Source: Oscillospiraceae bacterium (lineage in GTDB: Bacteria > Bacillota > Clostridia > Oscillospirales > Oscillospiraceae). Taken from it: a stretch of DNA of 64,000 nt. The position numbers and the translations under genes are program-made. The stretch spans positions 24,763 to 88,762 of the forward strand of contig CACYYN010000014.1 in NCBI GenBank assembly GCA_902778665.1, written 5' to 3'. A model generated the notes under the pieces. That model worked only from the letters and a program-made list of their open reading frames with translations, was not told the origin of the DNA and searched no databases. Shown piece after piece: positions 21,003 to 35,440 of this stretch (position 1 is the stretch's first letter; every line of letters starts with the position of its first letter).

Positions 21003-21995
21003 TCATATTTCATCCGGGTCCCCGGTTTTTTTATCTCCTTCTCTCAGCCCGTGGTTATATATCTTCTTATCCAGGGAGAATACTCTGTCGCTGAATTTGC
21101 CCGGTTCCAGTGTTTCAAAGGTTTCCGCGTAGATTTCCATTCTGCTGTCCAGCAGGTCAATGTAGGAGAGCAGTTCTGCTTCGGCTGTGCTTGGGATCAC
21201 AGCGGCACCGAATTCCGGTGTACCGTGATGAGACAGAAGCATATGACGCAGCAGAAGAAGCTTTTCCTCCGGGATTTCCAGCTTTCGGCCTACCTCTCCT
21301 ACCTCTTCCGCGCCCAGCACCAGGTGCCCTACCAGCATCCCTTCCACAGATTTATCCGTCACAAGTCCAAGCTCGGAGAAATCGTATTCCTTTTCTTTTC
21401 CAAAATCATGCAGGAGGGTACCGGCAAGAAGCAGGCTTCGGTTCACTACCGTGGGATAAATCTCCGTGGCGAGAAAATCTGCAATGCGCAGCATAGATGA
21501 GGTATGCATCAGCAGCCCGGACAGAAAGCTGTGGTGCACATTTTTTGCTGCGGGGATTTTGCCGAAGGACGCCATATGTCTGTCCAGCATTTCCGCACAC
21601 AGCAGTCGATAATCCTCGTCTTCCATGGAGGCAATCAGGTCCTGCACATATTCCATCTCTTTAACGGAATCTATCGGGGCAGTGGGGACAAGATCTTCCA
21701 GGGCATAGTTGTCCGTGCTCTCAGCAAGTCGTATTCTCCGAATGTTCATCTGAAGGCTGCCTTTAAATTCCGTTACTTCTCCCCGGATTTTAACCACCTT
21801 GCCTTCTTCCGCAGGGCCGAGCTTCCCGTTGAAATCCCACATTTTAGCCTCCATTTTCCCGGACGCATCGGCAATGGACGCATTGAGATAGGGTTTTCCG
21901 TTGGAGGCGGTGCGAATCGAAGCGGTTTTCAGGATATAGAATCCTTCGATAACCTCTCCCGCAGCCATGTAGGCAAGCTGTTTGTTATATTCCAT
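21003..21995 (-). CDS. YhaM-like 3'-5' exoribonuclease, OB-fold plus HD domain
   Basis: 330 residues: N-terminal OB-fold nucleic-acid-binding domain (to ~110; IASIRTASNGKPYL, EAKMWDFNG) and HD hydrolase domain with HHSFLSGLLMHT and LLHDFGKEKE as metal ligands, then HH in LLSHHGTPE. B. subtilis YhaM/CbfI trims RNA 3' ends. Start set at MEYNKQL, 6 bases after CAGGAGA; the longer frame lies inside the upstream gene. It overlaps the surface-protein gene by 11 bases, so translation is coupled. Confidence 0.92.
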   Translation of the reverse strand: MEYNKQLAYMAAGEVIEGFYILKTASIRTASNGKPYLNASIADASGKMEAKMWDFNGKLGPAEEGKVVKIRGEVTEFKGSLQMNIRRIRLAESTDNYALEDLVPTAPIDSVKEMEYVQDLIASMEDEDYRLLCAEMLDRHMASFGKIPAAKNVHHSFLSGLLMHTSSMLRIADFLATEIYPTVVNRSLLLAGTLLHDFGKEKEYDFSELGLVTDKSVEGMLVGHLVLGAEEVGEVGRKLEIPEEKLLLLRHMLLSHHGTPEFGAAVIPSTAEAELLSYIDLLDSRMEIYAETFETLEPGKFSDRVFSLDKKIYNHGLREGDKKTGDPDEI

Positions 21996-24900
21996 GCTGT
22001 TCTCCTGTTCTTTCATTTTCGGTAAGACTGTGTTTTCCGGTCTTTCTGTTCTTTTTATTGCCAAGGACCGGAAGAAGACCTGCAAGTGCACAACCTGATG
22101 TCAGAAAAGAACCCATTGCCGGAAGAAGTGAATGATCACCGGTTTTGGGTACATCCCGACGAGATTGAATGTAAATCGGTTCGCTTTTCGGAACATATGA
22201 GATAGAAAGCGTATGTTTTCCGCGATAGAGAGACGCCATAAAGGCCTTGGTGAAGTGAATGGCGGTGCCGCCTTCAGCGGAGGACATGGTCCAGTTATAC
22301 CCTCCTCCGTTATACTGCGGGATGGCAGTTCCGTCAATCTTTATTTCGGGAACGATGTTTGCCGGAGCTGTTGTCCGGATCAGGAATCCGTCTGAATAGT
22401 CATAATACCAGACGCCGTCATTTTCTTTATAACTGATGGAATAATATGTATCCGGCCGCATCCCGGTCACCGTCACTTTGCAGTACGCCTTGGCACCTCC
22501 TGCAGCTTCGAGAGTTATCATAGCCTCACCGTCGCCCAGAGGGGTAATGTAAAACTCCCCTTCTGTCGTGCCGTAATCAACACGGATGATATTGCGCATG
22601 GTATCTGAACTTGTAATGGTCACAGTTCGCTCCGTTGTGCTGCTGGGTGTAAACCAGTATCTCACAGTGCGAAATCCCGGTGGTTCCAGATGCACATACT
22701 CCTGGTCAATGTGAAGAACTGAAGCAACAATCTTCTCATTCTCCTTCACAAGTACCCTGCATGTGGTCTCAGATGTTTGGGTTGTTGCCGGATTATAGGC
22801 TTTCAGTGTTAAGACTGCCATTCCCGGTGATCTGCCGGTTACAATGCCCAGCAACTCATCCACAAAAGCCACATAGCTGTTGCTGCTGTACCAGCGAAGA
22901 GTGTATCCTTCCGGAACGGAGGCCGTCAGTGTGCGTGTCTCCCCAACGGTTATTACCAGATCCTCAGACGATGCAGCCACTACCCTCGGCGTAATAAACA
23001 CATAGCGCTTCATATAATTGGCAGCAATGGAGCTGTCAGCTTCAACAGCGTCTGCGCTAAGGTCTGATACACGAATCAGCGGCGTATAGCCGGAAAAGTT
23101 CGGCATAGCAGAGAATGCGCCGCCCGATCCTTCCGCAAGAACAGTACCTCCCGAAACTGTAACTTCACCGGAAATGCCGGTTGAACCGCTTCCACCGGAA
23201 GCTGCCCGTGCAGTTACTTCTCCGCCGGTCAGAAACAGGGCAGATGACACGATGCCGTGGCTTGTTTCGGATGCAACACCGCCGCTCGCTGTGAGCATCC
23301 CTGCATTGGTTAAAGTGCCTTCCGCGTAAAGGCCTGTGCTGTCACCGCCGCTGTTGCCGGCTGTGCAGTCAGCCGTGCCATTGTTTGTAAAATTGCCGCC
23401 TGCATAAACACCACGGCTGCTTCCTGCCGCCCCTCTCCCGGATACAGTGAGAGTTGTGAGATATTCGACGCCGACATCTCCCGATACCCAGACACCCGTA
23501 CTGTCTCCTCCGGAATAGCAGTCTCCCCCGGAAGCGGTGACCGTTCCTCCGGTGAGCGAATTGATCGTCTTAACCGTGAGTGAATTGCATCGGATCCCGC
23601 AGGAGGAGGCTGCGCTGCCCGCAGATGCTGAAAGCATCCCGCCGACTTCAACAGAACCGGAGCAATACACACCGGTACTGTATGTGGTTCCGCCCTGGGA
23701 AAGTGCCGTCACATTGGCATCGCTGCCAATGCGCAGAGAGGCATTCTTTACGGCAATTGCACAGGAGTCGTCAGCCCAGGGAGCTGTGACTGTCAGCGTG
23801 TCGGTAGCAGCGTAGGAAGACAGAGTCAGGTCTGCTTCACTGTAGATGCCGAAGTTTGTGCCGGGAACGCCGGAGACAATATTATCACCGGAGAATACAA
23901 CCGTGAGAGGAATTTTTGCAGTAATCCCTCCGTTGATCACCGCATTGTTCAGGAACAGCATATTCCTCTCCGGATTAAAGGATACGGCATACCCCTGCTC
24001 CTCCAGAACATTATCCCGATTCACATCGGTTACCTGTGTTCCGGCTATCCACACAGGATATTGGTTGGTTGCCGTAATAATCAGTTCGATATCGGAAAAA
24101 ATCTGCTTATCCGGAACAACAAATCTGTATGCGGTTTCCGATACCTGTGTCAGGTTTTCCTCATAGGAAATAATGCTGTCATAAGGCCGATAGTCATATT
24201 CTGTCGCACATTTGCTCAATGCCAGACCGTTCAGTTTCAGAGAAACAAGGATCTCCTGTCCCGGGACAACGGTGCTGCCTTTCCGCAATACCTGCCCCAT
24301 GGATTGGACAGAATCAATGTAACGCTCTGTGTCAGCAGACCAGATGAGACTGATCGGCTGCGTACCGGATTGTTCCTTCGCGGTGACTGTGATTACCAGC
24401 TCAACATTGGAGAGAACCCCATCTGTCGGAACTGTTAACCGATAAAACACAGGTGAAATCTGTTGCAGGTTTTCTTCATAAGTCTCAACAGTTTCATGTG
24501 AACGCCGCTCATACCTGGCAGCGCATTTGATCGTATCATAATCCCCGGGTTTAACAGCAACAAAAATTTCCTGCCCCGGTGAAATAGAGCTGTTCTTTGC
24601 GACAGACCGCCCGTTTATCGTTACGGTGTCGAGATACTGCTCCGAAGTTTCTGACCATGTCAAGCGTATTTCAGGGGAAGAATCCGGCTGCTGCGGATCA
24701 ATGATTGTCTGGGTGGCATCAATCACAAGCTCCACATCGGATACGACGCCCTCCTCCGGAATCATAAAGGAATACTGTGTTGAAGTCTCCTTCTGAAGGG
24801 GTGAAGTAATGATTCCGCCACCATACGGTTGATAGGCAAATCTTATGCTGCTGTTCTTCACAAGGATACCGTTCGGTTTCACAGAAACAAAATACTTCTG

Positions 24901-25251
24901 CCCCGGCAGAATCGTATCCCCGATCAGAACCGGAGTATTATTGGATTCCACATTATCAATAAACCGCGCGGTCTCCTCTGTCCATGTGATGTGTATTTCC
25001 GAGGGAGCGTCCTGCTGAGCAGAGAGATCAGGTGCGCCGAACACTGTCTGCATTCTATTTTGCGAGTAACCGGTATCTGCAGAGTACCCCGTTCCACCCA
25101 TCTGATTCATTCCTCCGGAATCTCTCATCAGATCTCCGGGACCAAAACCGTTCAGGTCAATCGCCTCTGCGCGCAGACATACAGGACCCGTCATACTGAC
25201 GGACAGTGAAATGATCAGCAGACATATTACAATTCTGATTTTCACAGACAC
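21985..25251 (-). CDS. Large sortase-anchored surface protein with three N-terminal repeats
   Basis: 1088 residues. Signal peptide, then three ~97-residue repeats (24999-24712, 24672-24382, 24357-24067), each with WS/TETxxYIDxV, PGQEIFV and FSDIELIITAT-like motifs. Next comes a Gly/Ser/Thr-rich region of short stranded repeats that looks like a beta-helix carbohydrate-binding domain (from YPVWIAGTQVTD), then an Ig-like BIG_2 domain and the sorting signal VPKTGD + hydrophobic span + KKNRK. Start: GGAGG 8 bases before GTG 25251 is far better than the bare ATG at 25272. No sortase gene is in the window. An adhesin or matrix protein is likely. Confidence 0.87.
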   Translation of the reverse strand: MSVKIRIVICLLIISLSVSMTGPVCLRAEAIDLNGFGPGDLMRDSGGMNQMGGTGYSADTGYSQNRMQTVFGAPDLSAQQDAPSEIHITWTEETARFIDNVESNNTPVLIGDTILPGQKYFVSVKPNGILVKNSSIRFAYQPYGGGIITSPLQKETSTQYSFMIPEEGVVSDVELVIDATQTIIDPQQPDSSPEIRLTWSETSEQYLDTVTINGRSVAKNSSISPGQEIFVAVKPGDYDTIKCAARYERRSHETVETYEENLQQISPVFYRLTVPTDGVLSNVELVITVTAKEQSGTQPISLIWSADTERYIDSVQSMGQVLRKGSTVVPGQEILVSLKLNGLALSKCATEYDYRPYDSIISYEENLTQVSETAYRFVVPDKQIFSDIELIITATNQYPVWIAGTQVTDVNRDNVLEEQGYAVSFNPERNMLFLNNAVINGGITAKIPLTVVFSGDNIVSGVPGTNFGIYSEADLTLSSYAATDTLTVTAPWADDSCAIAVKNASLRIGSDANVTALSQGGTTYSTGVYCSGSVEVGGMLSASAGSAASSCGIRCNSLTVKTINSLTGGTVTASGGDCYSGGDSTGVWVSGDVGVEYLTTLTVSGRGAAGSSRGVYAGGNFTNNGTADCTAGNSGGDSTGLYAEGTLTNAGMLTASGGVASETSHGIVSSALFLTGGEVTARAASGGSGSTGISGEVTVSGGTVLAEGSGGAFSAMPNFSGYTPLIRVSDLSADAVEADSSIAANYMKRYVFITPRVVAASSEDLVITVGETRTLTASVPEGYTLRWYSSNSYVAFVDELLGIVTGRSPGMAVLTLKAYNPATTQTSETTCRVLVKENEKIVASVLHIDQEYVHLEPPGFRTVRYWFTPSSTTERTVTITSSDTMRNIIRVDYGTTEGEFYITPLGDGEAMITLEAAGGAKAYCKVTVTGMRPDTYYSISYKENDGVWYYDYSDGFLIRTTAPANIVPEIKIDGTAIPQYNGGGYNWTMSSAEGGTAIHFTKAFMASLYRGKHTLSISYVPKSEPIYIQSRRDVPKTGDHSLLPAMGSFLTSGCALAGLLPVLGNKKNRKTGKHSLTENERTGEQHGI
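24067..24999 (-). repeat. Three ~97-residue tandem protein repeats
   Basis: Repeats at 24999-24712, 24672-24382 and 24357-24067 share an aromatic WS/T opening, PGQ, a (K)CA-YEYRPY block, YEENLTQVS and a V-S-D-V/I-E-L-V/I-I end. They have diverged at DNA level, so duplication is old. Confidence 0.8.
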
Positions 25252-25275
25252 TGAGATCGCCTCCGGTTTCATGTA

Positions 25276-25395: not shown

Positions 25396-25878
25396 ATGCA
25401 TGTGTTTCTCATCTGCCTGTTGCTTTGGTTATTGTTTAATGGAAGGGTCACGGTTGAGATTCTGGCCTTCGGTATTGTAATCTCCGCTGTCATTTATGCT
25501 GTCAGCTGCCGGTTTCTCGGTTTCAGCTTTCGGAAGGACCTTTTTTATATCAAAAAACTGCCAGCTGCCTGCATGCTGCTGGGTGTACTTCTCAGTGAGA
25601 TTGTCAAATCCAATCTGGCAGTCATCAGGGCTGTATACAGCAATACGCCGCAGGATTCCCGCTACGAAGAATTTGATACCTCCCTTGAAAAAACAATTAC
25701 CCGCGTAGCTCTGGCAGACTGCATCACACTCACCCCCGGCACAATAACTGGAAGGCTTGACGGAAACCATTATATCGTTCACTGTCTCAATCAGGAGATG
25801 GCTGAGGGGCTGGGACTGGAGCAGCGCAGATTTACCCGTCAGCTTCAGAAGCTTGAGGAAAGGGAGGAAACGCCATGA
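25396..25878 (+). CDS. mrpE: Mrp/Mnh cation:proton antiporter subunit E
   Basis: About 160 residues, MnhE family. Two or three N-terminal spans (LICLLLWLLFNG) are followed by a cytoplasmic domain with CITLTPGTITGRLDG, the family hallmark. Start may be ATG 25396 or GTG 25402; the GGTGG site fits the GTG spacing slightly better. First gene of a rightward ten-gene operon encoding a multi-subunit Na+(K+)/H+ antiporter-type complex; it overlaps mrpF by 4 bases. Confidence 0.92.
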   Translation: MHVFLICLLLWLLFNGRVTVEILAFGIVISAVIYAVSCRFLGFSFRKDLFYIKKLPAACMLLGVLLSEIVKSNLAVIRAVYSNTPQDSRYEEFDTSLEKTITRVALADCITLTPGTITGRLDGNHYIVHCLNQEMAEGLGLEQRRFTRQLQKLEEREETP

Positions 25879-26159
25879 CCTTTACCGCGCTTTCCCATGG
25901 CCTACTGACTGCTGTTACAGCAGTTCTGGCACTCTGTGCACTGGCCTGTCTCCTGCGTGCCATTATCGGGCCTTCCGTTGCCGACAGGCTTGTCGCTGTT
26001 AATATGACCGGCACACAGGTGATCTGTCTCATCTGCCTCGTTGCTGCCCGTTCCGGGGAACACGGATTTGCCGATGTTGCCGTGATTTATGCCATGCTCA
26101 GTTTTCTCGCCGTTGTCGTTCTGACCCGTATTTTAACCGGAAAGGGGAAGAAAAAATGA
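25875..26159 (+). CDS. mrpF: Mrp antiporter subunit F
   Basis: 94 residues, three membrane spans, MnhF/MrpF family with RAIIGPSVADRLVAVN, the family signature that includes the invariant D-R pair. Overlaps mrpE and mrpG by 4 bases each (ATGA), so translation is coupled. Confidence 0.94.
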   Translation: MTFTALSHGLLTAVTAVLALCALACLLRAIIGPSVADRLVAVNMTGTQVICLICLVAARSGEHGFADVAVIYAMLSFLAVVVLTRILTGKGKKK

Positions 26160-26476
26160 CAGCTTTAGAATGGATCCGTTTTCTTCTCGGCGCTTTGCTG
26201 CTTCTGTCAGGCACATTTTTCATTGTTTCATCAGTTGTCGGGAACTTCCGCTTTCGCTATGTGCTTGCCCGGATGCATGCTGCCGGTCTGGGAGACACGC
26301 TTGGAACTCTGCTTCTGTTCGCAGGTATTTTGATTCTGTGCGGGTTTTCCGTCTTTACACTAAAGCTTCTGCTTATCATTCTGCTGATGTGGACAACCGG
26401 CGCGGTTTCTTCCCACCTGATCATGCAGATGGAAATCAATAGCGGCAGCAGTGCCGATGGCAGAAAGGAGAAATAA
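26156..26476 (+). CDS. mrpG: Mrp antiporter subunit G
   Basis: 106 residues with three spans, MnhG/PhaG family; RMHAAGLGDTLGT corresponds to the conserved RxHAxxxxDTLG block. Overlaps mrpF. Small membrane subunit needed for assembly in studied Mrp complexes. Confidence 0.94.
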   Translation: MTALEWIRFLLGALLLLSGTFFIVSSVVGNFRFRYVLARMHAAGLGDTLGTLLLFAGILILCGFSVFTLKLLLIILLMWTTGAVSSHLIMQMEINSGSSADGRKEK

Positions 26477-26478
26477 AC

Positions 26479-26736
26479 ATGAATATTTCAGCGTTCTTTC
26501 TCCTCACTTTTCTGATTGTCTGCGCAATAGCCGTAGCCCTGACCAGAGATCCTTTCAAGGCCGTTCTCATACAGATGGGCTTCAGCACTGTTATGTCTGT
26601 TATCTGGCTGCTGCTGGAATCACCTGACCTGGCAGTTACCGAGGCTGCTGTCGGCGCAGGCGTGACCGGCATTCTTTTCTTCATCACACTGTGGAGAATC
26701 GGGCTGATCGGTGGAAAGGAAGGGAAGAAAAAATGA
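26479..26736 (+). CDS. MbhD-like subunit (DUF4040; MrpA C-terminal-like)
   Basis: 85 residues, three spans. It matches the DUF4040/MbhD domain that in classical MrpA is fused behind the antiporter core; ESPDLAVTEAAVGAGVTG is the signature and includes the conserved Asp/Glu pair. In MBH hydrogenases it is a free gene between MbhC and MbhE, which is also its place here. Its stop overlaps the next start (ATGA). Confidence 0.9.
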   Translation: MNISAFFLLTFLIVCAIAVALTRDPFKAVLIQMGFSTVMSVIWLLLESPDLAVTEAAVGAGVTGILFFITLWRIGLIGGKEGKKK

Positions 26737-27662
26737 GAATTCCCCGTATGATCGCCCTCTTCATCAATTGGGTAGAAGGCGAAGACACGGTTCCAGTCCC
26801 GGAGAAGGATTCACCTTCCCGCAATCCGGGCAGGGAAAAAAGACATAGCACAAAAGTGAGCAACAGAGTGGGAAGCTCTTCCAGCCATACAAAGGAACTG
26901 ACCCTTCTCTATGATGTGCTGTCCGTAGTGGTATGCCTGACGGTTATCTGCGCACTTCTTGTAACGGTCTCCTGGCTGCCAAAATTCGGCAGCAGTGATA
27001 ACCCGGCAGAAAACGAGGTCTACACCCGCTATGTGGAAAGTGAGCTCAGAGAAGCCGGAGCGGTCAACACGGTGGCAGGGATGATTCTGGATTACCGCGC
27101 TTTTGACACGCTGGGAGAATCCAATGTGCTGTTTGTTGCCGTTGTGAGCGTGATTATTCTCCTGCGTGCTGACCGAAAAGGAAAGAACCACACACTGAAT
27201 CTTCCGGAACTGGCAACCACCCCTGAGGAGAAGCCGGACGACGAGATTCTTCGCTTCTCTGCAAGGATTCTGATTCCGGCGGTGCTTCTGTTCGGCATCT
27301 ACGTTGTGCTGAACGGCCATCTCTCGGCAGGCGGCGGCTTTTCCGGCGGAGCTATCCTCGGTGGGGCAATGATTCTATATGTGCGTGCTTTCGGAGTGGA
27401 AAAAATGGAAAAGATTTTTACCTTCAGCACCTATAAATGGATTACCTTCGGAGCACTTATGACCTATACACTGCTGAAAACCTGGTCTTTTTATACCGGC
27501 GCAAACGGTCTGGAGAGCGGAATCCCTCTCGGGAAGCCCGGCGCCATTCTCTCCGGTGGACTGATTCTGCCCCTAAATATCTGCGTCGGCCTTGTGGTAG
27601 CTTGCACCATGTATGCCTTCTATTCTCTTTTCAGCAAAGGAGGCTTCGGCAATGGGCAGTAA
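26733..27662 (+). CDS. MbhE-MrpB fusion subunit
   Basis: 309 residues. The first part holds a short linker and MbhE-like spans (about 50-130) with TVAGMILDYRAFDTLGE, the usual end of the MrpA-C/MbhE region. The second half is an MnhB domain with VLNGHLSAGGGFSGGAI. Start set at MRIPRMIAL, directly behind GGAAGGGAAG and overlapping the previous stop; the longer reading runs in another frame of the upstream gene. It overlaps mrpC by 11 bases. Confidence 0.9.
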   Translation: MRIPRMIALFINWVEGEDTVPVPEKDSPSRNPGREKRHSTKVSNRVGSSSSHTKELTLLYDVLSVVVCLTVICALLVTVSWLPKFGSSDNPAENEVYTRYVESELREAGAVNTVAGMILDYRAFDTLGESNVLFVAVVSVIILLRADRKGKNHTLNLPELATTPEEKPDDEILRFSARILIPAVLLFGIYVVLNGHLSAGGGFSGGAILGGAMILYVRAFGVEKMEKIFTFSTYKWITFGALMTYTLLKTWSFYTGANGLESGIPLGKPGAILSGGLILPLNICVGLVVACTMYAFYSLFSKGGFGNGQ

Positions 27663-28026
27663 TCTCACCTCCAATTATTTTGAAGTCACAGCAGTAATCT
27701 GCTTCAGCATCGGGTTCACCATGCTCTTTCTGAACAAAAACCTGATCAAAAAAGTCATCGGTTTCAACTTTATGGACAGTTCCATTTTTCTTTTTCTGGC
27801 CTCTAACGGATATATCACCGGGAGGATCAGCCCGATCATCACCAACGGATCTGTCGCTTCGGAAAACTATATCAACCCGATTCCCGCGGGGCTGGTGCTG
27901 ACGGGCATTGTGGTCTCCGTCAGTGTGTCGGCTTTTCTCCTGGCTCTGACCACACGCCTTTACCTTCGATATCACACACTGGATCTGGATGAGATGATCC
28001 GGTTGTCAAGGGCGGAGGACGACTGA
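27652..28026 (+). CDS. mrpC: Mrp antiporter subunit C
   Basis: 124 residues, three spans, NuoK-like MnhC family: IGFNFMDSSIFLFL and DPIPAGLVLTGIVVS-like block (NPIPAGLVLTGIV). Start set at MGSNLTS, 8 bases after AAAGGAGG. Ends in TGATG with the next gene. Confidence 0.94.
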   Translation: MGSNLTSNYFEVTAVICFSIGFTMLFLNKNLIKKVIGFNFMDSSIFLFLASNGYITGRISPIITNGSVASENYINPIPAGLVLTGIVVSVSVSAFLLALTTRLYLRYHTLDLDEMIRLSRAEDD

Positions 28027-29525
28027 TGGCAACAGTACAGAACTTTCCTTTTGCAGCAATCATGCTGTATCTTGCGGGCGGCGTCACCTGCTGCGTGCTC
28101 AAGCCCAAAGCTTCCAAAGTGGTGTGCCTGCTGCTCAACAGCCTTGTCACGGTGCTGATGTTTGCGGTGCTTCTTTACACCGTGCGCACTGGTGAAAGCT
28201 ATGTTTATTGGATGGGGCACTTTCCCGCTCCTTGGGGCAATGAAATCCGCATCGGTCCTCTGGAAGCACTGATGGGCACTGCTTTCCCGCTCATCATGAC
28301 GCTGACGCTTCTCGGCGGCATGGAACATATTTTTGAAGATGTTGAGCCGGAGAAAACAAATCTGTATTTTACTGTTGTCAGCCTGTTGATGGTTGCCATG
28401 CTTGCTCTTATCTTCACCAACGATTTATTCACTGCCTACGTTTTTGTGGAGATCAACACCATTGCCTCCTGCGCACTGGTTATGCTGAAATATCGAAGCG
28501 GCAGAGCACTTGTCGCCACCACACGCTATATGATGATGAGCCTGCTGGGTTCCGGGCTCTTTCTTCTGGGCATCGTCATTCTCTACAGCATCACAGGGCA
28601 TCTGTTGATGGAACCGATGGCACGAAAAATCCGGGAACTGTTTTCAACCGGTAATTATGCTTTTCCCCTCACCGTAACCGTCGGCCTTTTTGCTGTCGGC
28701 ATGGCATTAAAAAGTGCATTATGGCCCTTCAGTGCCTGGTTGCCGGATGCCCATTCCAGTGCGACCGTCTCTTCCAGCGGCATTCTCTCCGGCCTGGTGG
28801 TGAAAAGTTATATTATCCTGCTGCTTAAGATTTTCTATCGGGTCATCGGGATAGACCTGGTTTACTCTTCCGGCATAACCAATATTCTCTTTTTGTTCGG
28901 ATTTGGAGCAATTGTATTTGGGTCCTTCTACGCCCTTCGCGAAAAGGATATTAAACGTATGCTTGCTTACTCCTCTGTTGCCCAGATAGGCTATATCTAC
29001 CTCGGCATCGGGATCGGCACTTCCCTCGGTGCGAAGGCCGCCTGCATCCAGATACTGGTGCATGCCATAACAAAGCCGCTGCTTTTCTGCACTGCAGGAG
29101 CTTTTATGTCCGCATCCGGAGGCAGCCGCAGATTTGAAAATCTGCGCGGAGCAGGCAGACGGGATCTTCTCTCCGGCATTGCTTTCACCATCGGCGCTCT
29201 CTCCATGATCGGCATTCCTCTGTTCGCAGGGTTCATCACCAAACTGCACCTCACGAGGTCACTGTTTCTTTTCGGGACGTGGAAGTTCTGGTTCGGCATT
29301 GCAGCGCTGGTCATCAGCACCGTTCTCAACACGCTTTATTATCTTGCGGCTGTTTCTGTTCTGTTCCAGAAGGTGCCGGGCGATTCTCCCCCTGTTGAAA
29401 GGCCGTCGGCTTCTCTTTTCTATCGCTGTTCTGTCATTATTTTTTCCGTGCTCAATCTGCTGTACGGGATTTTTTCCGAGCCGGTTACACAGATCATACA
29501 ATCCGGTTTATCCCTTTTTTCTTGA
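28026..29525 (+). CDS. mrpD: Proton-translocating antiporter subunit, MrpD-like (first of four)
   Basis: 499 residues, about 14 spans, NuoL/M/N family. Retains the charged residues needed for proton transfer: Glu in FVEINTIAS, Lys in GMALKSALWPF, and Lys in HAITKPLLF. Of the four related subunits in the operon it is the most NuoN-like (SSATVSSSGILSG). Coupled to mrpC by a TGATG overlap. Confidence 0.93.
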   Translation: MATVQNFPFAAIMLYLAGGVTCCVLKPKASKVVCLLLNSLVTVLMFAVLLYTVRTGESYVYWMGHFPAPWGNEIRIGPLEALMGTAFPLIMTLTLLGGMEHIFEDVEPEKTNLYFTVVSLLMVAMLALIFTNDLFTAYVFVEINTIASCALVMLKYRSGRALVATTRYMMMSLLGSGLFLLGIVILYSITGHLLMEPMARKIRELFSTGNYAFPLTVTVGLFAVGMALKSALWPFSAWLPDAHSSATVSSSGILSGLVVKSYIILLLKIFYRVIGIDLVYSSGITNILFLFGFGAIVFGSFYALREKDIKRMLAYSSVAQIGYIYLGIGIGTSLGAKAACIQILVHAITKPLLFCTAGAFMSASGGSRRFENLRGAGRRDLLSGIAFTIGALSMIGIPLFAGFITKLHLTRSLFLFGTWKFWFGIAALVISTVLNTLYYLAAVSVLFQKVPGDSPPVERPSASLFYRCSVIIFSVLNLLYGIFSEPVTQIIQSGLSLFS

Positions 29526-29534
29526 GGTAGCTCC

Positions 29535-31010
29535 ATGAACAGTAACATTTCTCTTCTGTTTCCGATTCTCTTCCCGATGCTGTGCGGCATAGCAGTCGGG
29601 CTGATTCCCGCGCTGAAAGATGAAAAACGTAGGCGGGTTTTTGTGCTCACCGCACTGAGTATATCATTTCTGCTTACAATCTCACAGATCCTGTTGCCGG
29701 AGGCTTCCCTGTATGTCTGTACACTGGCACCAAAAGCTGAGATTTCTTTTGCCGTGGATGCCGTTACCCGGTTCTTCGCTGGGCTGATCGCATTCATGTG
29801 GCTTATGAGCGGTATTTTTTCTTTCGAATATATGAAGCACGAGAAGAACCACAACCGGTACTACTGCTTCTATCTTCTGGGGGAAGGCGCCATGCTCGGG
29901 GTGGCATTCGCTGCCAACTACGTGACGATGTATCTCTGTTTTGAATGGATGACACTGATGACCCTGCCTATGGTGCTGCACAGCCAGACCGAGGATGCAC
30001 TGAAGGCCGGCATGAAATACCTGCTCTACTCCTTTGCGGGGGCTTTTGCAGGGCTTCTCGGTATTCCTTTTCTGGTCCGGTTCGGCACAACGCTTGACTT
30101 TATCCCGGGCGGTGTATTGGATATGACCCTTGTACAGGGTCACGAGACGCTTCTGCTGGGCGTTGCCTTCGCCGTGATTCTCGGTTTCGGTGCAAAAGCA
30201 GGCCTCTTTCCATTGCATGCATGGCTTCCGACAGCGCATCCGGTTGCTCCGGCTCCCGCCTCCGCCGTGCTTTCCGGCGTGATCACGAAAGCGGGTGTCA
30301 TCGCCATTATCCGGGTGATCTATTATCAGTTCGGTGCAGCGTTCCTCCGGGGCACGTGGATGCAGACTGCACTTTTGTGCACCGCTCTCGTCACGATTTT
30401 CATGGGTTCATCGATGGCTTATCGGGAAAAAATTTTAAAAAAGAGACTGGCCTATTCTACGGTAAGCCAGGTAAGCTATATTCTTTTCGGTCTATTTCTG
30501 ATGAACACCACCGCAATGACAGGTTCTCTTTTGCATGTGCTCTGCCACTCTGTTGTAAAGGACGGGCTGTTTCTCTGTGCCGGTGCCATCATATACAAGA
30601 CCGGCAAAACCGACGTGGAAGAGCTCACCGGCATTGGAAAGGAGATGCCCGTTGTGCTCTGGTGCTTCACACTCTGTGCCCTGGCCCTGATCGGCATTCC
30701 GCCCATGTGCGGTTTTATGAGCAAGTGGTATCTCGCACTGGGTTCACTTTCAAGCAGCATCCCCGTCATCAGCTGGCTGGGGCCGGTCATTCTGCTGATC
30801 TCCGCTCTGCTGACGGCCGCCTATCTGCTCCCGATCACAATCAGAGGGTTTTTCCCGGGTGAGGGCTATAACTACTCCGCCCTCGTGAAAAAGGAACCCA
30901 ATGCCTGGATGCTCCTGCCCCTGATTCTTCTGGCTGCACTGGCAGCATTCACCATCTTCCCTCAGCCTTTTCTCGCCATGGTGGAAAATGTGACCGCCTC
31001 TCTGATGTAA
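29535..31010 (+). CDS. Proton-translocating antiporter subunit, MrpD-like (second)
   Basis: 491 residues, about 14 spans. Charged motifs intact: CFEWMTLMTLP, GFGAKAGLFPLHAWLP, and HSVVKDGLFL. Carries the AHPVAPAPASAVLSG motif typical of MrpD/NuoM-type subunits. RBS GAGGTAG; 9 bases after the previous stop. Distinct from its neighbours in sequence, so an old paralogue rather than a recent copy. Confidence 0.93.
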   Translation: MNSNISLLFPILFPMLCGIAVGLIPALKDEKRRRVFVLTALSISFLLTISQILLPEASLYVCTLAPKAEISFAVDAVTRFFAGLIAFMWLMSGIFSFEYMKHEKNHNRYYCFYLLGEGAMLGVAFAANYVTMYLCFEWMTLMTLPMVLHSQTEDALKAGMKYLLYSFAGAFAGLLGIPFLVRFGTTLDFIPGGVLDMTLVQGHETLLLGVAFAVILGFGAKAGLFPLHAWLPTAHPVAPAPASAVLSGVITKAGVIAIIRVIYYQFGAAFLRGTWMQTALLCTALVTIFMGSSMAYREKILKKRLAYSTVSQVSYILFGLFLMNTTAMTGSLLHVLCHSVVKDGLFLCAGAIIYKTGKTDVEELTGIGKEMPVVLWCFTLCALALIGIPPMCGFMSKWYLALGSLSSSIPVISWLGPVILLISALLTAAYLLPITIRGFFPGEGYNYSALVKKEPNAWMLLPLILLAALAAFTIFPQPFLAMVENVTASLM

Positions 31011-31022
31011 AGGGAGCACAGC

Positions 31023-32489
31023 ATGAGTAATCAATTTCTGATTCTGCCGATTCTGATTCCTCTCATTTCAGGAATCAGCATTGCGCTCTTACCGTTTCGC
31101 TCCGAAAAAAGCAGAAATCTTTTTAATCTGACTGCTGTCCTGCTGAATTCTTTCGTGATTCTCTGGCTGATTCTCTCCCGTCCTGCCGGCTCTTTAACGC
31201 TCCTTTATCTCACAAAAACGCTCCCCTTTGCGCTGAAGCTGGATGGGCTCGGCATCATCTTTCTCGGGTTAATCGGTTTTCTGTGGCCTGTCTCCACGCT
31301 CTATTCTTTTGAGTATATGGAGCATGACAAAAACCAGCCGCGATTTTTCAGCTTTTACACCATCTGCTACGGTGTAACGGCAGGTGTTGCCCTCAGTGCC
31401 AACCCCATCACCATGTACTTCTTCTATGAGCTTCTCACCCTCGTCACGGTTCCGCTTGTCGCCCATGAGGGAGACAGACAGTCTATGGCCGCTGTGAGAA
31501 AATATATCATCTATTCCATGGGTGGCGCCGCCCTCTCCCTTACCGGCATCCTCATGCTGCTGAGCCATGCCGGCAGCGTGGAATTTGTTTACGGCGGGAT
31601 CGGCCAGCTTTTTCAGGGAGATTCCTTCCTGCTGCTGGCGTATCTGCTCACCTTTATCGGGTTCGGTGTAAAGTCCGCCGTTTTTCCCCTTCATGCATGG
31701 CTGCCTGCCGCCGGTGTTGCCCCGACCCCCGTCACAGCACTTCTGCACGCGGTTGCCGTTGTGAAAAGCGGTGTATTTGCTGCGATTCGCAGCACATATT
31801 ACACCTTTGGCCCTGACCTTCTGGCTGGTACCTGGGCACAGCAATCAACTGCTGTCGCTGCCGCCTTCACAATAGTTTTCGGCTCGGTCATGGCCCTTCG
31901 TGAGCAGCATCTGAAACGCCGCCTTGCCTATTCCACCGTCAGCAACCTGAGCTATATTCTCTTTGGCATGAGCCTCATGACTGCAGAAGGACTTGTGGCC
32001 GGACTTAGCCATATGCTCTTTCACGGGGTCATCAAAATTACGCTGTTCTTCTGCGCAGGAACCGTCCTGTGCAAAACCGGGCGGGCTTATGTTCCCCAGA
32101 CGACGGGGCTCGGCAGGAAGATGCCCGTAACCTTCATCACATTTCTGATCTCCGGACTTGCTCTCACCGGGACGCCGCTTCTCCCCGGTTATATCAGCAA
32201 AATGAACCTTTTGATGTCCGCTGCCCTTGCAGGCGGACCGTTTGCCATGGCAGGTATCATTGCCCTGCTTCTCTCCGCCATCCTCACAGCTGCTTACCTG
32301 CTGCCGATGGGGATCCGAGCTTTCCTCGTCACCCCTGAAGATTCTCTGTCCTTCACAGAGCATGACAGAGATCCGGGATGGCAGATGCTGGTTCCCTTTA
32401 CCGTGCTGGTGCTCACCATGCTGGTGCTTGGCATTCATGCCGAACCTCTGATGAATGCTTTGGAAAGCCTGATTATGGGCAGTGTCTGA
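31023..32489 (+). CDS. Proton-translocating antiporter subunit, MrpD-like (third)
   Basis: 488 residues, about 14 spans. Motifs FFYELLTLVTVP, GFGVKSAVFPLHAWLP and HGVIKITLFF keep the key Glu and Lys residues, but the loop reads AAGVAPTPVTALLHA instead of AHPVAPAPASAVLSG, marking a separate subtype. The acidic residue pattern suggests it is functional. Followed by a 13-base gap and the fourth copy. Confidence 0.92.
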   Translation: MSNQFLILPILIPLISGISIALLPFRSEKSRNLFNLTAVLLNSFVILWLILSRPAGSLTLLYLTKTLPFALKLDGLGIIFLGLIGFLWPVSTLYSFEYMEHDKNQPRFFSFYTICYGVTAGVALSANPITMYFFYELLTLVTVPLVAHEGDRQSMAAVRKYIIYSMGGAALSLTGILMLLSHAGSVEFVYGGIGQLFQGDSFLLLAYLLTFIGFGVKSAVFPLHAWLPAAGVAPTPVTALLHAVAVVKSGVFAAIRSTYYTFGPDLLAGTWAQQSTAVAAAFTIVFGSVMALREQHLKRRLAYSTVSNLSYILFGMSLMTAEGLVAGLSHMLFHGVIKITLFFCAGTVLCKTGRAYVPQTTGLGRKMPVTFITFLISGLALTGTPLLPGYISKMNLLMSAALAGGPFAMAGIIALLLSAILTAAYLLPMGIRAFLVTPEDSLSFTEHDRDPGWQMLVPFTVLVLTMLVLGIHAEPLMNALESLIMGSV

Positions 32490-32502
32490 AAGGGGGCAGA
32501 AC

Positions 32503-34578
32503 ATGATCCTTCAATCAACCGTGCTTCTTCCCATCCTTGCCTTTTGGCCTATGCTCGGTGCGCTGATCGGTTACTGCATCGGGCGAAGAAGCAAGATCGC
32601 TCGCGACCGCTTTGCCCAGTCTGTCATGGCGCTGGAACTTGTTATTCTGCTGAACTGTGCATTCTTTCTTGTGGGGCGCGGATTCAAGCTTGTATATTCC
32701 ATGCCCAGCCTGCTCGGCGGACTGTCCTTTGAGGCAGACGGCTTTCGGATTCTCTACTCCTGTATAGCCGGTTTTATGTGGTTGATGACCACATTATTCT
32801 CAGAAGAGTACCTCGGCCATTACAGAAATCGAAATCGCTATTATCTCTTCACTCTGCTGACCTGCGGAGCTACCGTCGGTGTGTTTCTCTCCGCCGATCT
32901 CATCACCACTTTTATTTTCTTTGAAATCATGTCCTTCACCTCTTATGTGATGGTCATCCATGATGAAAACCCATTTGCCATGCGCGCCGGGCAGACTTAT
33001 CTGGCAGTTGCCGTGCTTGGCGGAATGGTGATGCTGATGGGGCTCTTCCTGCTTTACACGCTCACCGGCACACTGGTGATTTCCCGGCTGCCGGAAGCCT
33101 GTGCCGCCCTGTCTGCAGAAAAGAGACCCACGCTCTATCTCGCCGGGACCCTGATGCTCTTTGGCTTTGGTGCCAAGGCCGGCATGTATCCCCTGCACAT
33201 CTGGCTGCCGAAGGCGCATCCTGTTGCTCCGGCGCCCGCCTCCGCCCTTCTCTCCGGCATCCTCACAAAAGCGGGTATCTTCGGCGTGCTTGTTCTCAGC
33301 TGCATCATCTTTCTGCATGACAAAAACTGGGGCATTGCCGTGCTTTCTCTCGGTGTACTCACCATGTTCACCGGTGCCGTGATAGCCCTCTTCTCCGTAA
33401 ACCTCAAACGCACGCTTGCCTGCTCTTCTGTCTCCCAGATTGGTTTTATTCTGGTCGGCATCGGTATGCAGTGCCTGCTGGGAGAGGAAAATGCTCTTGC
33501 TGTATGGGGCACGGAGCTTCACATGCTCAACCACTCGCTCATCAAGCTGGTCCTCTTTATGGCGGCGGGTGCAATCTACATGAATATCCACAAGCTTGAC
33601 CTGAACGATATTCGCGGCTTCGGCCGGGGAAAGCCGCTGCTCACAGCAATTTTTCTCTCCGGAACACTCACAATCACCGGCATCCCCCTCTTCAGCGGCT
33701 ATATCAGCAAAACACTGCTGCACGAGAGCATCGTAGAGTATATGGAGCTTCTGGAGGAAGCCGGACGCGGCATTGCCGTAATGAAAGGCGTGGAGTGGAT
33801 CTTTCTTTTCAGCGGCGGGCTGACGGTTGCCTATATGACCAAGCTGTTTGTCTGCATTTTTCTGGAAAAGAATGCCGATCCTGCCCTGCAGGCAAAATAT
33901 GAAAGCCTAAACGGACATTATATGTCACTTCGCAGTGTTTTCGCCCTCGGCATTCCGGCACTGATTCTTCCGGTTATGGGCTGCTTCCCCCCTGTTTTTA
34001 TGCAGCGCATCGCCGAATTCGGCCAGAGTTTTCTGCATGGTGAAGCCCCCGCTCATGCCGTCCACTGGTTCTCTCTGACCAATCTCAAAGGAGCTGCGAT
34101 TTCAATTGCAATCGGCGCTGCCGTATACTTCGGTTTTATCCGAACACTTCTTCTGAAGAAAGATCATGGCGGAGTGTTGCATTATGTCAACCTTCGACCA
34201 TCCAAGCTGGATATGGAAAATGCGATCTACCGTCCGCTCTGTGCCCTGCTGGCAAAAGTATCCGTTGCTTTCGGAAGAGCCTTAGATATTACGGGAGATG
34301 TGATACTGCCGAAAGCTTCCGTTTTTCTGGCACTTCTTTTCAGTCACACGGCGTCCTCCCTGCCGGACTGGATTGTAACCGGTCTCCGCAAAACCGTTCT
34401 CCGTAAGATTCCCATTCCTCCAGAGAATCCGGAGGATCATGCTCCCGCCGATCTCGCCGTCGACATTAACATTCCGAAAGAAATGGATGACGTCCTCAAT
34501 GACTTCTCCTATGGGCTGATTCTCTTCGGCATCGGGCTGGTTGTCGTTATCGTCTATCTCGTCTTCCATTCCAGATGA
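32503..34578 (+). CDS. Large antiporter subunit, MrpA-N/NuoL-like (fourth)
   Basis: 691 residues. An N-terminal antiporter core (to ~480) has FFEIMSFTSYVM, GFGAKAGMYPLHIWLP and NHSLIKLVLF, followed by a C-terminal extension with more spans and a cytoplasmic stretch (PIPPENPED), then a final anchor helix. This resembles MbhH/NuoL-type large subunits rather than plain MrpD. Start set at MILQSTV, 6 bases after AAGGGGG; the longer reading begins inside the previous gene. Last gene of the operon. Confidence 0.92.
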   Translation: MILQSTVLLPILAFWPMLGALIGYCIGRRSKIARDRFAQSVMALELVILLNCAFFLVGRGFKLVYSMPSLLGGLSFEADGFRILYSCIAGFMWLMTTLFSEEYLGHYRNRNRYYLFTLLTCGATVGVFLSADLITTFIFFEIMSFTSYVMVIHDENPFAMRAGQTYLAVAVLGGMVMLMGLFLLYTLTGTLVISRLPEACAALSAEKRPTLYLAGTLMLFGFGAKAGMYPLHIWLPKAHPVAPAPASALLSGILTKAGIFGVLVLSCIIFLHDKNWGIAVLSLGVLTMFTGAVIALFSVNLKRTLACSSVSQIGFILVGIGMQCLLGEENALAVWGTELHMLNHSLIKLVLFMAAGAIYMNIHKLDLNDIRGFGRGKPLLTAIFLSGTLTITGIPLFSGYISKTLLHESIVEYMELLEEAGRGIAVMKGVEWIFLFSGGLTVAYMTKLFVCIFLEKNADPALQAKYESLNGHYMSLRSVFALGIPALILPVMGCFPPVFMQRIAEFGQSFLHGEAPAHAVHWFSLTNLKGAAISIAIGAAVYFGFIRTLLLKKDHGGVLHYVNLRPSKLDMENAIYRPLCALLAKVSVAFGRALDITGDVILPKASVFLALLFSHTASSLPDWIVTGLRKTVLRKIPIPPENPEDHAPADLAVDINIPKEMDDVLNDFSYGLILFGIGLVVVIVYLVFHSR

Positions 34579-34593
34579 TCTGGTAATTTTAAA

Positions 34594-34632
34594 CACCGGG
34601 GTTGGTTTTTAAACCTTCCCCGGTGCTCTCTA
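34594..34632 (+). terminator. Hairpin at the end of the Mrp operon
   Basis: Stem CACCGGGG / CCCCGGTG (34594-34601 with 34618-34625) with an inner GGTTT/AAACC pairing. The downstream tract CTCTCTATTT is only partly T-rich. Confidence 0.6.
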
Positions 34633-34714: not shown

Positions 34715-34747
34715 TATAATGAGGTTAGATGGAGCCATATGCGGCTC
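34715..34747 (+). promoter_or_regulatory. Promoter -10 and leader hairpin of the phosphoribosyltransferase gene
   Basis: TATAAT at 34715-34720 (the -35 is poor) gives a transcript start near 34727. A small hairpin GAGCC-N6-GGCTC (34732-34747) opens the leader, about 35 bases before the RBS. An ATG at 34729 would be leaderless and is not used here. Confidence 0.45.
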
Positions 34748-34782
34748 AAAACCTGAAAACACCAGAAAGGACGTGTAAAAGC

Positions 34783-35421
34783 ATGGTAATTCCGACCACC
34801 CATTTCCGCAGTGATTCCAGCAGTATCCCGCTTCGTATCGCCAAAGGCCATTTTGCGACGAACCACAGCCATCTCAATTACTATATTGACATGACGTATA
34901 CCAAGCACCGTCTGGGAGAAGCGCAGCAGGCGGCGAAAGAACTGGCAGTTGAATTCAAAACCTCCACCGTAGTTGACACCGTTCTCTGTCTGGACGGTAC
35001 GGAAGTCCTCGGCACGTGCATTGCAGACGAACTGACCAATGCAGGCGTAAGGAACATGAACAAACATGAGACCATCTATATCGTCACACCGGAACGCGTC
35101 GGCGGAGATCAGCATATTTTCCGTGAAAACACCGCTCATCTGATCCGCAACCGGCACGTCCTCGTACTGGCAGCCTCCGTCACTACCGGTAAAACCGTAC
35201 AGGAAGCAATAGAGCTGCTGCATTATTACGGCGGCATCCCGGTAGGTATCTGCAGCATTTTTACCTGTCTGGATGAATGCGAAGGCTTCCCGATCACGGC
35301 AATCTTTCATTCCAGCGAACTGGAGGACTACCAGTGCCTGCCCATGAATCAGTGCCCGCTATGCAAAAACGGTGTCAAAATCGACGCACTGGTGAATTCC
35401 TACGGAATTTCCAGTTTCTGA
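34783..35421 (+). CDS. Orotate phosphoribosyltransferase-like protein with altered PRPP loop
   Basis: 212 residues with a type I phosphoribosyltransferase fold. The PRPP-loop position reads HVLVLAASVTTGKTV (residues ~125-139), where active enzymes have two acidic residues (VVDDVxTTG); here they are Ala-Ala/Ser, so PRPP catalysis is doubtful. A Cys cluster (CLPMNQCPLCKNG) near the C-terminus is an added feature that could bind zinc. Start at ATG 34783 follows AAAGGACG; the promoter rules out the earlier ATG. Single transcription unit. Possibly a regulatory or salvage-type homologue. Confidence 0.8.
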   Translation: MVIPTTHFRSDSSSIPLRIAKGHFATNHSHLNYYIDMTYTKHRLGEAQQAAKELAVEFKTSTVVDTVLCLDGTEVLGTCIADELTNAGVRNMNKHETIYIVTPERVGGDQHIFRENTAHLIRNRHVLVLAASVTTGKTVQEAIELLHYYGGIPVGICSIFTCLDECEGFPITAIFHSSELEDYQCLPMNQCPLCKNGVKIDALVNSYGISSF

Positions 35422-35440
35422 TTGTTTCTCGAAATGACTT

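Follow-up and report, generated by a model that had tools for sequence, protein, structure and literature searches.

A stand-alone Mbh-type Mrp operon with four antiporter-like subunits, probably a cation/H+ antiporter, in an Oscillospiraceae bacterium

Mrp antiporters of the Bacillus type (groups 1 and 2) have one MrpA, in which a NuoL part is fused to an MbhD/E part, one MrpD, and an MrpC carrying histidines, according to PMC7419157. Among the group 3 clusters recorded in PMC5703873 are mrpCDCDEFGBB of cyanobacteria and mrpFGBCDDAE of Microbacterium, and those of anaerobes are described as markedly different. Pyrococcus furiosus has a stand-alone mrpEFGBB'CD beside MBH and MBS, with evidence for Na+ coupling (PMC8415708). 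Antiporter-like subunits are reported at one to three copies per complex and, recently, at four (Chadwick et al. 2018, as cited in PMC7419157). Exploring a stretch of 64,000 nucleotides from an Oscillospiraceae bacterium (GCA_902778665.1, contig CACYYN010000014.1 or C14, positions 24763-88762; hereafter the window), whose genome comprises 2.73 Mb in 79 contigs and is 84% complete, we found on the + strand at 25396-34578 ten genes encoding Mrp small subunits followed by four antiporter-like large subunits, M1 to M4. The initial annotation of this DNA credited known Mrp antiporters with a single MrpA and a single MrpD. This is too narrow a description, since the literature and public sequence records contain clusters that have two or three large subunits. 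Our literature search, outside which most subscription papers lay, found no redox-free Mrp with four large subunits.

Pfam assigned families to 10 of the 10 genes, PF00361 occurring four times (E-values 8.1e-52 to 7.5e-57), which bears out the initially proposed order of E-F-G-MbhD-MbhE/B-C followed by four NuoL/M/N-type subunits (Table 1). Adjacent gene ends overlap by 1-11 bases or leave gaps of 2-12, as measured between open reading frames (ORFs) whose start codons we chose, and given this close spacing the genes read as a single operon. M1-M4 share 30-42% pairwise identity, M2 and M3 being the closest (41.7%), and the best solved relative of every large subunit is MbhH or MbsH; that of M1 is MbsH 6u8y_H, and M1 likely takes the MbsH/NuoN position adjoining MrpC. 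All NCBIfam matches shown (for M1-M4, the best 25 of 73-75) fall under the curated cut-offs, so that no curated model shown fits the four-subunit form exactly. The operon has the features by which group 3 Mrp systems are recognized, i.e. small subunits B, C, E, F and G, MbhD and MbhE, at least one MrpD-type subunit, the four key residues, and no redox module of its own, considering NuoB/NuoD-type modules only. The single MrpA polypeptide of groups 1 and 2 is absent, its parts being encoded by separate genes with MbhE fused to MrpB, and so are the two MrpC histidines at their presumed places. We conclude that the operon probably encodes a stand-alone, Mbh-type, group-3-like Mrp monovalent cation/H+ antiporter whose proton arm has four antiporter-like subunits in place of one or two.

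GluTM5, LysTM7, LysTM8 and LysTM12 (TM, transmembrane helix) are present in each of the four large subunits, in agreement with the initial statement that all of them retain the Glu and Lys residues of the proton path. To count these residues across loci we used large-subunit rows uncut by a locus end, dropping cut or short rows and mixing three- and four-subunit operons. LysTM12 was kept throughout (M1 81/81, M2 76/76, M3 100/100, M4 81/81), LysTM7 in 81/81, 73/76, 100/100 and 81/81 rows of M1 to M4, respectively, LysTM8 in 81/81, 76/76, 82/100 and 81/81, and GluTM5 in 81/81, 75/76, 99/100 and 80/81. The TM12 residue is Glu in E. coli NuoM, HyfB, HyfF and HycC, hence the all-Lys pattern of M1-M4 is Mrp-like. 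Among the small subunits, the MrpF Asp (GPxxxDR) was found in 37/37 rows of four-subunit loci, and the MbhD Glu in 39/39 four-subunit rows and 47/47 other rows. Five places past a conserved Gly, MrpC of four-subunit loci carries Asp in 38 and Glu in 1 of 39 rows; at this acidic site the 48 other rows have Asp or Glu in 28, Gln in 14 and other residues in 6.

Relatives of the operon were compared at 103 loci, comprising 37 stretches from 36 genomes of the genus and order, 60 from the class and phylum (25/25 remaining class-level hits and 35/75 remaining phylum-level hits) and six named loci. The full order E-F-G-MbhD-MbhEB-C-M1-M2-M3-M4 was found in 36 of the 103 (29/43 in the near set, 7/60 in the wide set), an end gene touching the locus end, and thus being cut, in 4 of the 36. 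Fourteen further loci hold only a contiguous part of the order. Twelve of these lie where a contig ends, L076 and L077 among them as fragments of the same genome; E, F and G were undetectable in L104, and M3 alone was seen in L165. The six named loci, five of Lachnospiraceae bacterium metagenome-assembled genomes and one of an uncultured bacterium, carry M4 relatives at 50-52% identity (best segment), and they do not duplicate the remaining loci, M3 being at most 86% identical between the two sets; M3 pairs more than 90% identical occur only among L045-L048. The remaining 53 loci have three large subunits in 38 cases, four in 9, five in 3, seven in 2 and two in 1, as counted by profile with split ORFs unmended. 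A split M1-type gene explains the count of four in L111 and L118, and an apparently split gene lies behind the count of five in L094 and L119; M4 of L094 (genome G080) is in two pieces at L094:6673-8707, through a frameshift or an assembly error. In L143 (G1148) and L154 (G1019) seven PF00361-type genes stand among Mrp genes starting B-C-M1-E-F-G-D-E, and these arrays may be two adjacent operons.

At the order level M3 was matched at E<=1e-60 in 31 of 394 genomes, the host included. The M2-M3-M4 arrangement, whole or contig-cut, was present in 28 of the 30 others, the exceptions being G159 with three large subunits and G164 with an M1 fragment, M2 and M4. M3-type matches were found in 27/391 genomes of the class and 77/398 of the phylum, many of the wider ones being three-subunit operons. 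Within the host genus, M3 orthologues occurred in 7 of 25 genomes examined (own included), many of them incomplete, and identity to M3 was 76% in G024, 44-48% in other genus members and 54% in G060 of another genus. This patchy occurrence within the genus suggests transfer or loss.

The fourth subunit goes back to an old duplication of the middle subunit in a three-subunit operon. In a mixture-model tree of 56 rows, M2 of four-subunit operons forms one clade (100/100) and M3 another (100/99); the two are sisters at 100/99, and three-subunit operons contribute their single middle subunits to the group in which both nest (100/96). The initial annotation had proposed a tree as a check and named recent, decaying duplicates among the four as the outcome that would speak against it; the conserved residues and the old duplication behind the M2 and M3 sister clades reject that outcome. 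The middle subunit of L157 (M1-M2-M4) falls inside the M2 clade and therefore looks like a case of M3 loss. L140, L122 and L168, with four large subunits, combine an M3-type middle subunit with a second middle-type subunit placed, weakly, outside the M2 clade; long operons thus seem to have arisen more than once, gain and loss being indistinguishable here. In a broader, quick tree of 130 rows M1 groups with MbsH and haloarchaeal D1 (support 93), and the M4 clade (99) includes MbsH' 6u8y_X on a long branch; we are less sure of these backbone placements than of the M2/M3 result. Being sister copies of a single ancestral middle subunit, M2 and M3 could be alternatives for the same place, in which case the operon would encode two three-subunit antiporters differing in their properties and not a row of four, and three large subunits are indeed the commonest number among the other loci (38/53 outside the exact or contig-cut order). 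We regard this as unlikely, since 36 loci keep M2 and M3 in the same operon and the same order, favouring their synthesis together, since the additional middle-type subunit by which L140, L122 and L168 reach four large subunits falls outside the M2 clade, and since a four-module complex I has been reported (Chadwick et al. 2018, via PMC7419157).

A further alternative is that the operon serves a redox or transport partner of another family and does not perform cation/H+ antiport. The MrpC histidines are missing, and PF00361-type proteins serve other machines, e.g. the DAB CO2-uptake complex, which is kin to them. Against this, all Mrp small subunits are retained and no conserved partner gene was found beside the operon, no flanking family occurring in more than 5 of 45 loci (blastp, ORFs of at least 90 amino acids, aa); we give this explanation very little weight.

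None of the eight neighbouring genes scanned encodes a redox protein, as initially stated; NuoH and the redox subunits of Complex I were absent among these eight, NuoA not being part of the search. Neither the operon nor the loci contain NuoB/NuoD-type redox subunits or a NuoH-type anchor, the NuoH search not being genome-wide. Profiles of the host hydrogenase (NuoB, 49-kDa, 30-kDa, NuoH, HypD, HypF), the only ones used on the flanks, gave zero matches in the 103 loci, and a ferredoxin profile gave two weak matches of 22 and 27 bits; the same host-derived profiles recover the hydrogenases of G284 and G360. The host has one PF01058 (NuoB-type) gene and one PF00346 (NuoD-type) gene, the latter in two segments. 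The PF00346 gene belongs to a hydrogenase operon at the end of contig C22 (L009:1-11755) carrying hypF, hypD, a hypE-like gene, the 30-kDa gene, the 49-kDa gene with a NiFe-hydrogenase match and a hypA-like gene, followed by an Mrp part of MrpE, F, G, MbhD, MbhE, MrpB, MrpC and a 642-aa antiporter subunit, and then by NuoH; the hypA-like gene sits between the catalytic and the Mrp parts. The PF01058 gene and a ferredoxin gene are found at the end of contig C2 (L010:5584-6882). Because the reading directions of the two ends are compatible, we infer a single Mbh-type [NiFe] operon, split by assembly, that includes an Mrp module and an antiporter subunit of its own. Its small-subunit order matches that of the four-subunit operon, confirming the likeness to hydrogenase Mrp modules pointed out at the outset; the genome search then suggested, for redox genes without an Mrp module, returned redox genes accompanied by one.

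The four-subunit arrangement, whole or contig-cut, occurs in 44 genomes, 29 of which were tested for these families, namely the host and 28 listed as at least 95% complete. PF01058 and PF00346 were both absent in 26 of the 29, all 26 being listed as at least 95% complete, other redox families not having been searched there. The other two positives besides the host were G284, with an Mbh-type operon having its own Mrp module and antiporter subunit, and G360, with an Ech-like hydrogenase (L184:10552-19883), encoded some 10 kb beyond the 3' end of the four-subunit operon, that comprises an antiporter-type ORF, NuoH, NuoB, 49-kDa, ferredoxin and Hyp genes. The initial suggestion that these genes encode the membrane half of a respiratory complex with its electron-input half encoded elsewhere, for which the small-subunit order shared with the host hydrogenase, the presence of that hydrogenase's redox module and the 84% completeness of the genome could be cited, is hardly credible and is rejected for NuoB/NuoD-type modules, because the host hydrogenase that owns these genes already has an Mrp module and antiporter subunit, 26/29 genomes lack both families, and in G284 and G360 the hydrogenase operon likewise includes an antiporter-type ORF.

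Judged from sequence, the multi-channel Na+/H+ antiporter is the better supported of the two readings first offered, and the respiratory half is not supported. In such an antiporter M4-M3-M2-M1 would most likely form a single row with M1 against MrpC/MbhD, and MrpE, F, G and B together with MbhD/E would form the cation path. The Glu/Lys networks of the row would conduct the protons, and their coupling to movement of the cation, probably Na+, at the MrpC/MbhD site would be electrostatic, from subunit to subunit, a charge change at LysTM7/GluTM5 being relayed to LysTM12 in the adjoining subunit, after the Mrp model of PMC7419157; exchange of Na+ for H+ could run in either direction. A Na+ economy in the host is plausible, since the genome has an RnfC gene (C25:39299-40564) and a V-ATPase K subunit (L179:1444-1929) whose PGTQGLY, AIAQG and VEFYA glutamate were matched by eye to the Na+ ligands Thr64, Gln65, Gln110 and Glu139 of E. 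hirae and to Tyr68, a residue named along with them in PMC2359735. An F-type c subunit was not found in the host genome, 84% of which is represented.

Several observations weigh against a four-subunit Na+/H+ antiporter. The incompleteness of the host genome means that absence in the host alone proves little. LysTM8 of M3 is replaced by Asn or Tyr in 18/100 rows. In three-subunit operons, ten last subunits whose best match is the hydrogenase subunit have Asn at TM7 (10/10), so the full residue set is not universal among kin subunits. MrpC lacks the histidines that bind the cation in Mrp; Ser/Thr and Phe/Tyr occupy their presumed places (H37, H40) in 38 and 39 of 39 rows, the alignment containing no Bacillus MrpC. 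The Asp/Glu adjoins these places, and with the histidines absent the cation site looks MBH/MBS-like and the identity of the ion is uncertain. AlphaFold on M4 with 7 sequences gave a mean predicted local distance difference test (pLDDT) score of 56.8 for the whole protein and 56.9 for the C-terminal 175 residues, and the candidate strap segment of M4 overlaps in length between four- and three-subunit operons.

The M4 extension ends in a TM helix, preceded by a putative lateral helix, resembling MbsH' of MBS, whose C-terminal extension likewise ends in a TM helix (PMC7684303). The low-confidence model of M4 has helices of 26 and 29 residues besides the last TM helix. The TM15-TM16 segment has a median length of 97.5 residues in four-subunit exact-type operons (n=42), 67.5 in three-subunit operons (n=22) and 109.5 in other long ones (n=6), with overlapping ranges of 65-146, 57-134 and 91-176, respectively, and 11/42 of just 65-70; a rank test on length gave p=0.0016 for rows that are related and so not independent. 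Owing to this overlap and relatedness, strap length was rejected as proof of a four-subunit row. Tandem self-similarity of the segment was detected in 8/70 at p<0.01 and 11/70 at p<0.05 (3.5 expected), including 7/14 for segments of at least 110 residues; M4 of the window shows no tandem repeat in the segment (p=0.63). Unit lengths are 27 in L079, 24 in L104 and L134, 22 in L084 and L097, and 26 in L140; L120, a three-subunit operon, has a unit of 28 in a charged stretch. M4 of L079 (9712-11991, G022) has about 3.5 copies of 27 residues between its last two TM helices. The repeat segment may be a lateral helix growing in units, and at 1.5 A per residue one unit, as a helix, would presumably span about the width of one module.

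That M1-M4 form a single row of four active modules, with a lateral M4 strap holding it and lengthening in units of about 22-28 residues in some lineages, and with the extra module raising H+ per Na+, is a tentative idea that we regard as possible but doubtful. If it were true, anaerobes would possess a natural gear series for cation/H+ exchange in their stand-alone operons, which have one, three, four or more modules; lengthening would have happened repeatedly, in parallel with that of complex I. Two models are set out in PMC7419157, in which a proton crosses each antiporter-like subunit, or enters or leaves at one subunit and spreads along the row. Quinone chemistry complicates this question in complex I, and stand-alone systems with one, three and four modules on one type of cation base would free it from redox; should every subunit carry a proton, the number of H+ per Na+ is expected to increase with that of the modules. 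The answer would bear on how Na+ and H+ gradients are traded in fermenting anaerobes that seem to use Na+.

The features of the operon are collected in Table 1. The initial annotation placed a terminator after the last subunit; a stable hairpin does follow M4, a good T-run was not found after it, and the top terminator pattern in the scan lies at 35440, beyond the gene that follows M4. Six of the eight neighbours scanned fall into HD/OB, phosphoesterase, SPFH, NfeD, glucosamine-6-P isomerase and RNase Y families; the remaining two have no family match. The ORF directly downstream of the operon (34729-35421, +, 230 aa) has no Pfam match and is by appearance a putative phosphoribosyltransferase. 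A divergent ORF of 1095 aa (21985-25272, -), also without a Pfam match, is by appearance a putative secreted surface protein. No Na+ riboswitch or other Rfam element was found in the window at gathering scores.

Table 1. Genes of the four-subunit operon and the hairpin that follows it, numbered from the first letter of the window.
Feature	Position	Strand	Evidence
MrpE (MbhA-like)	25396..25878	+	PF01899 E=1.2e-22; ATG, with a ribosome-binding-site-like stretch 5' of it
MrpF (MbhB-like)	25875..26159	+	PF04066 E=1.3e-14; GPxxxDR Asp retained
MrpG (MbhC-like)	26156..26476	+	PF03334 E=7.7e-19
MbhD (MrpA C-terminal part)	26479..26736	+	PF13244 E=5.7e-19; PDLAxTEAAVG Glu retained
MbhE-MrpB fusion	26733..27662	+	PF20501 residues 89-151, PF04039 residues 172-294
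MrpC (NuoK/MbhG-like)	27652..28026	+	PF00420 E=2.9e-17; alternative start 27613
M1, first antiporter-like subunit, 499 aa	28026..29525	+	PF00361 E=4.3e-53
M2, second antiporter-like subunit, 491 aa	29535..31010	+	PF00361 E=8e-55
M3, third antiporter-like subunit, 488 aa	31023..32489	+	PF00361 E=8.1e-52
M4, fourth antiporter-like subunit, 698 aa, C-terminal extension	32482..34578	+	PF00361 E=7.5e-57
Terminator-like hairpin 3' of M4	34594..34625	+	-22.6 kcal/mol, z -6.3, 0/200 shuffles as stable

Compared with known systems, the operon shares with Bacillus-type Mrp the kinds of small subunits and the proton-path residues, and differs from it in the points given at the outset. The three-subunit Mrp operons of Clostridia, e.g. 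that on a Peptoclostridium acidaminophilum plasmid (L176), likewise lack Mbh-type redox neighbours, and 30/38 three-subunit loci share the order E-F-G-MbhD-MbhE-MrpB-MrpC followed by the large subunits; unlike the present operon, they have three large subunits with a single middle one, and MbhE and MrpB are usually separate. The plasmid-borne Mrp of Haloarcula marina (L178), with E-F-G-DUF4040-MnhB-C before the large subunits and no redox neighbours annotated, differs in having three large subunits, in DUF4040 replacing separate MbhD and MbhE, and in the changes of LysTM7 to Asn in D3 and LysTM8 to Ala in D1. The stand-alone Mrp of P. furiosus has a similar small-subunit order and coexists with MBH in the genome but has one large subunit, whereas MBH and MBS, which share the acidic MrpC and MbhD residues and provide the closest solved large subunits, have a redox module and one or two antiporter-like subunits (PMC7684303). 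A Phyllobacterium zundukense plasmid (L177:7987-19248) bears an operon of the complex I type that encodes four large antiporter-like subunits, the genes of two of which are separated by a small hypothetical gene; plasmid records matching M2 numbered 389, with four places in 25/30 among the matches listed. The complex I with four modules that Chadwick et al. 2018 reported, as cited in PMC7419157, also has four antiporter-like subunits, yet it is driven by redox. The best reading is that the operon would be a stand-alone Mrp lengthened to four proton modules, in parallel to this four-module complex I.

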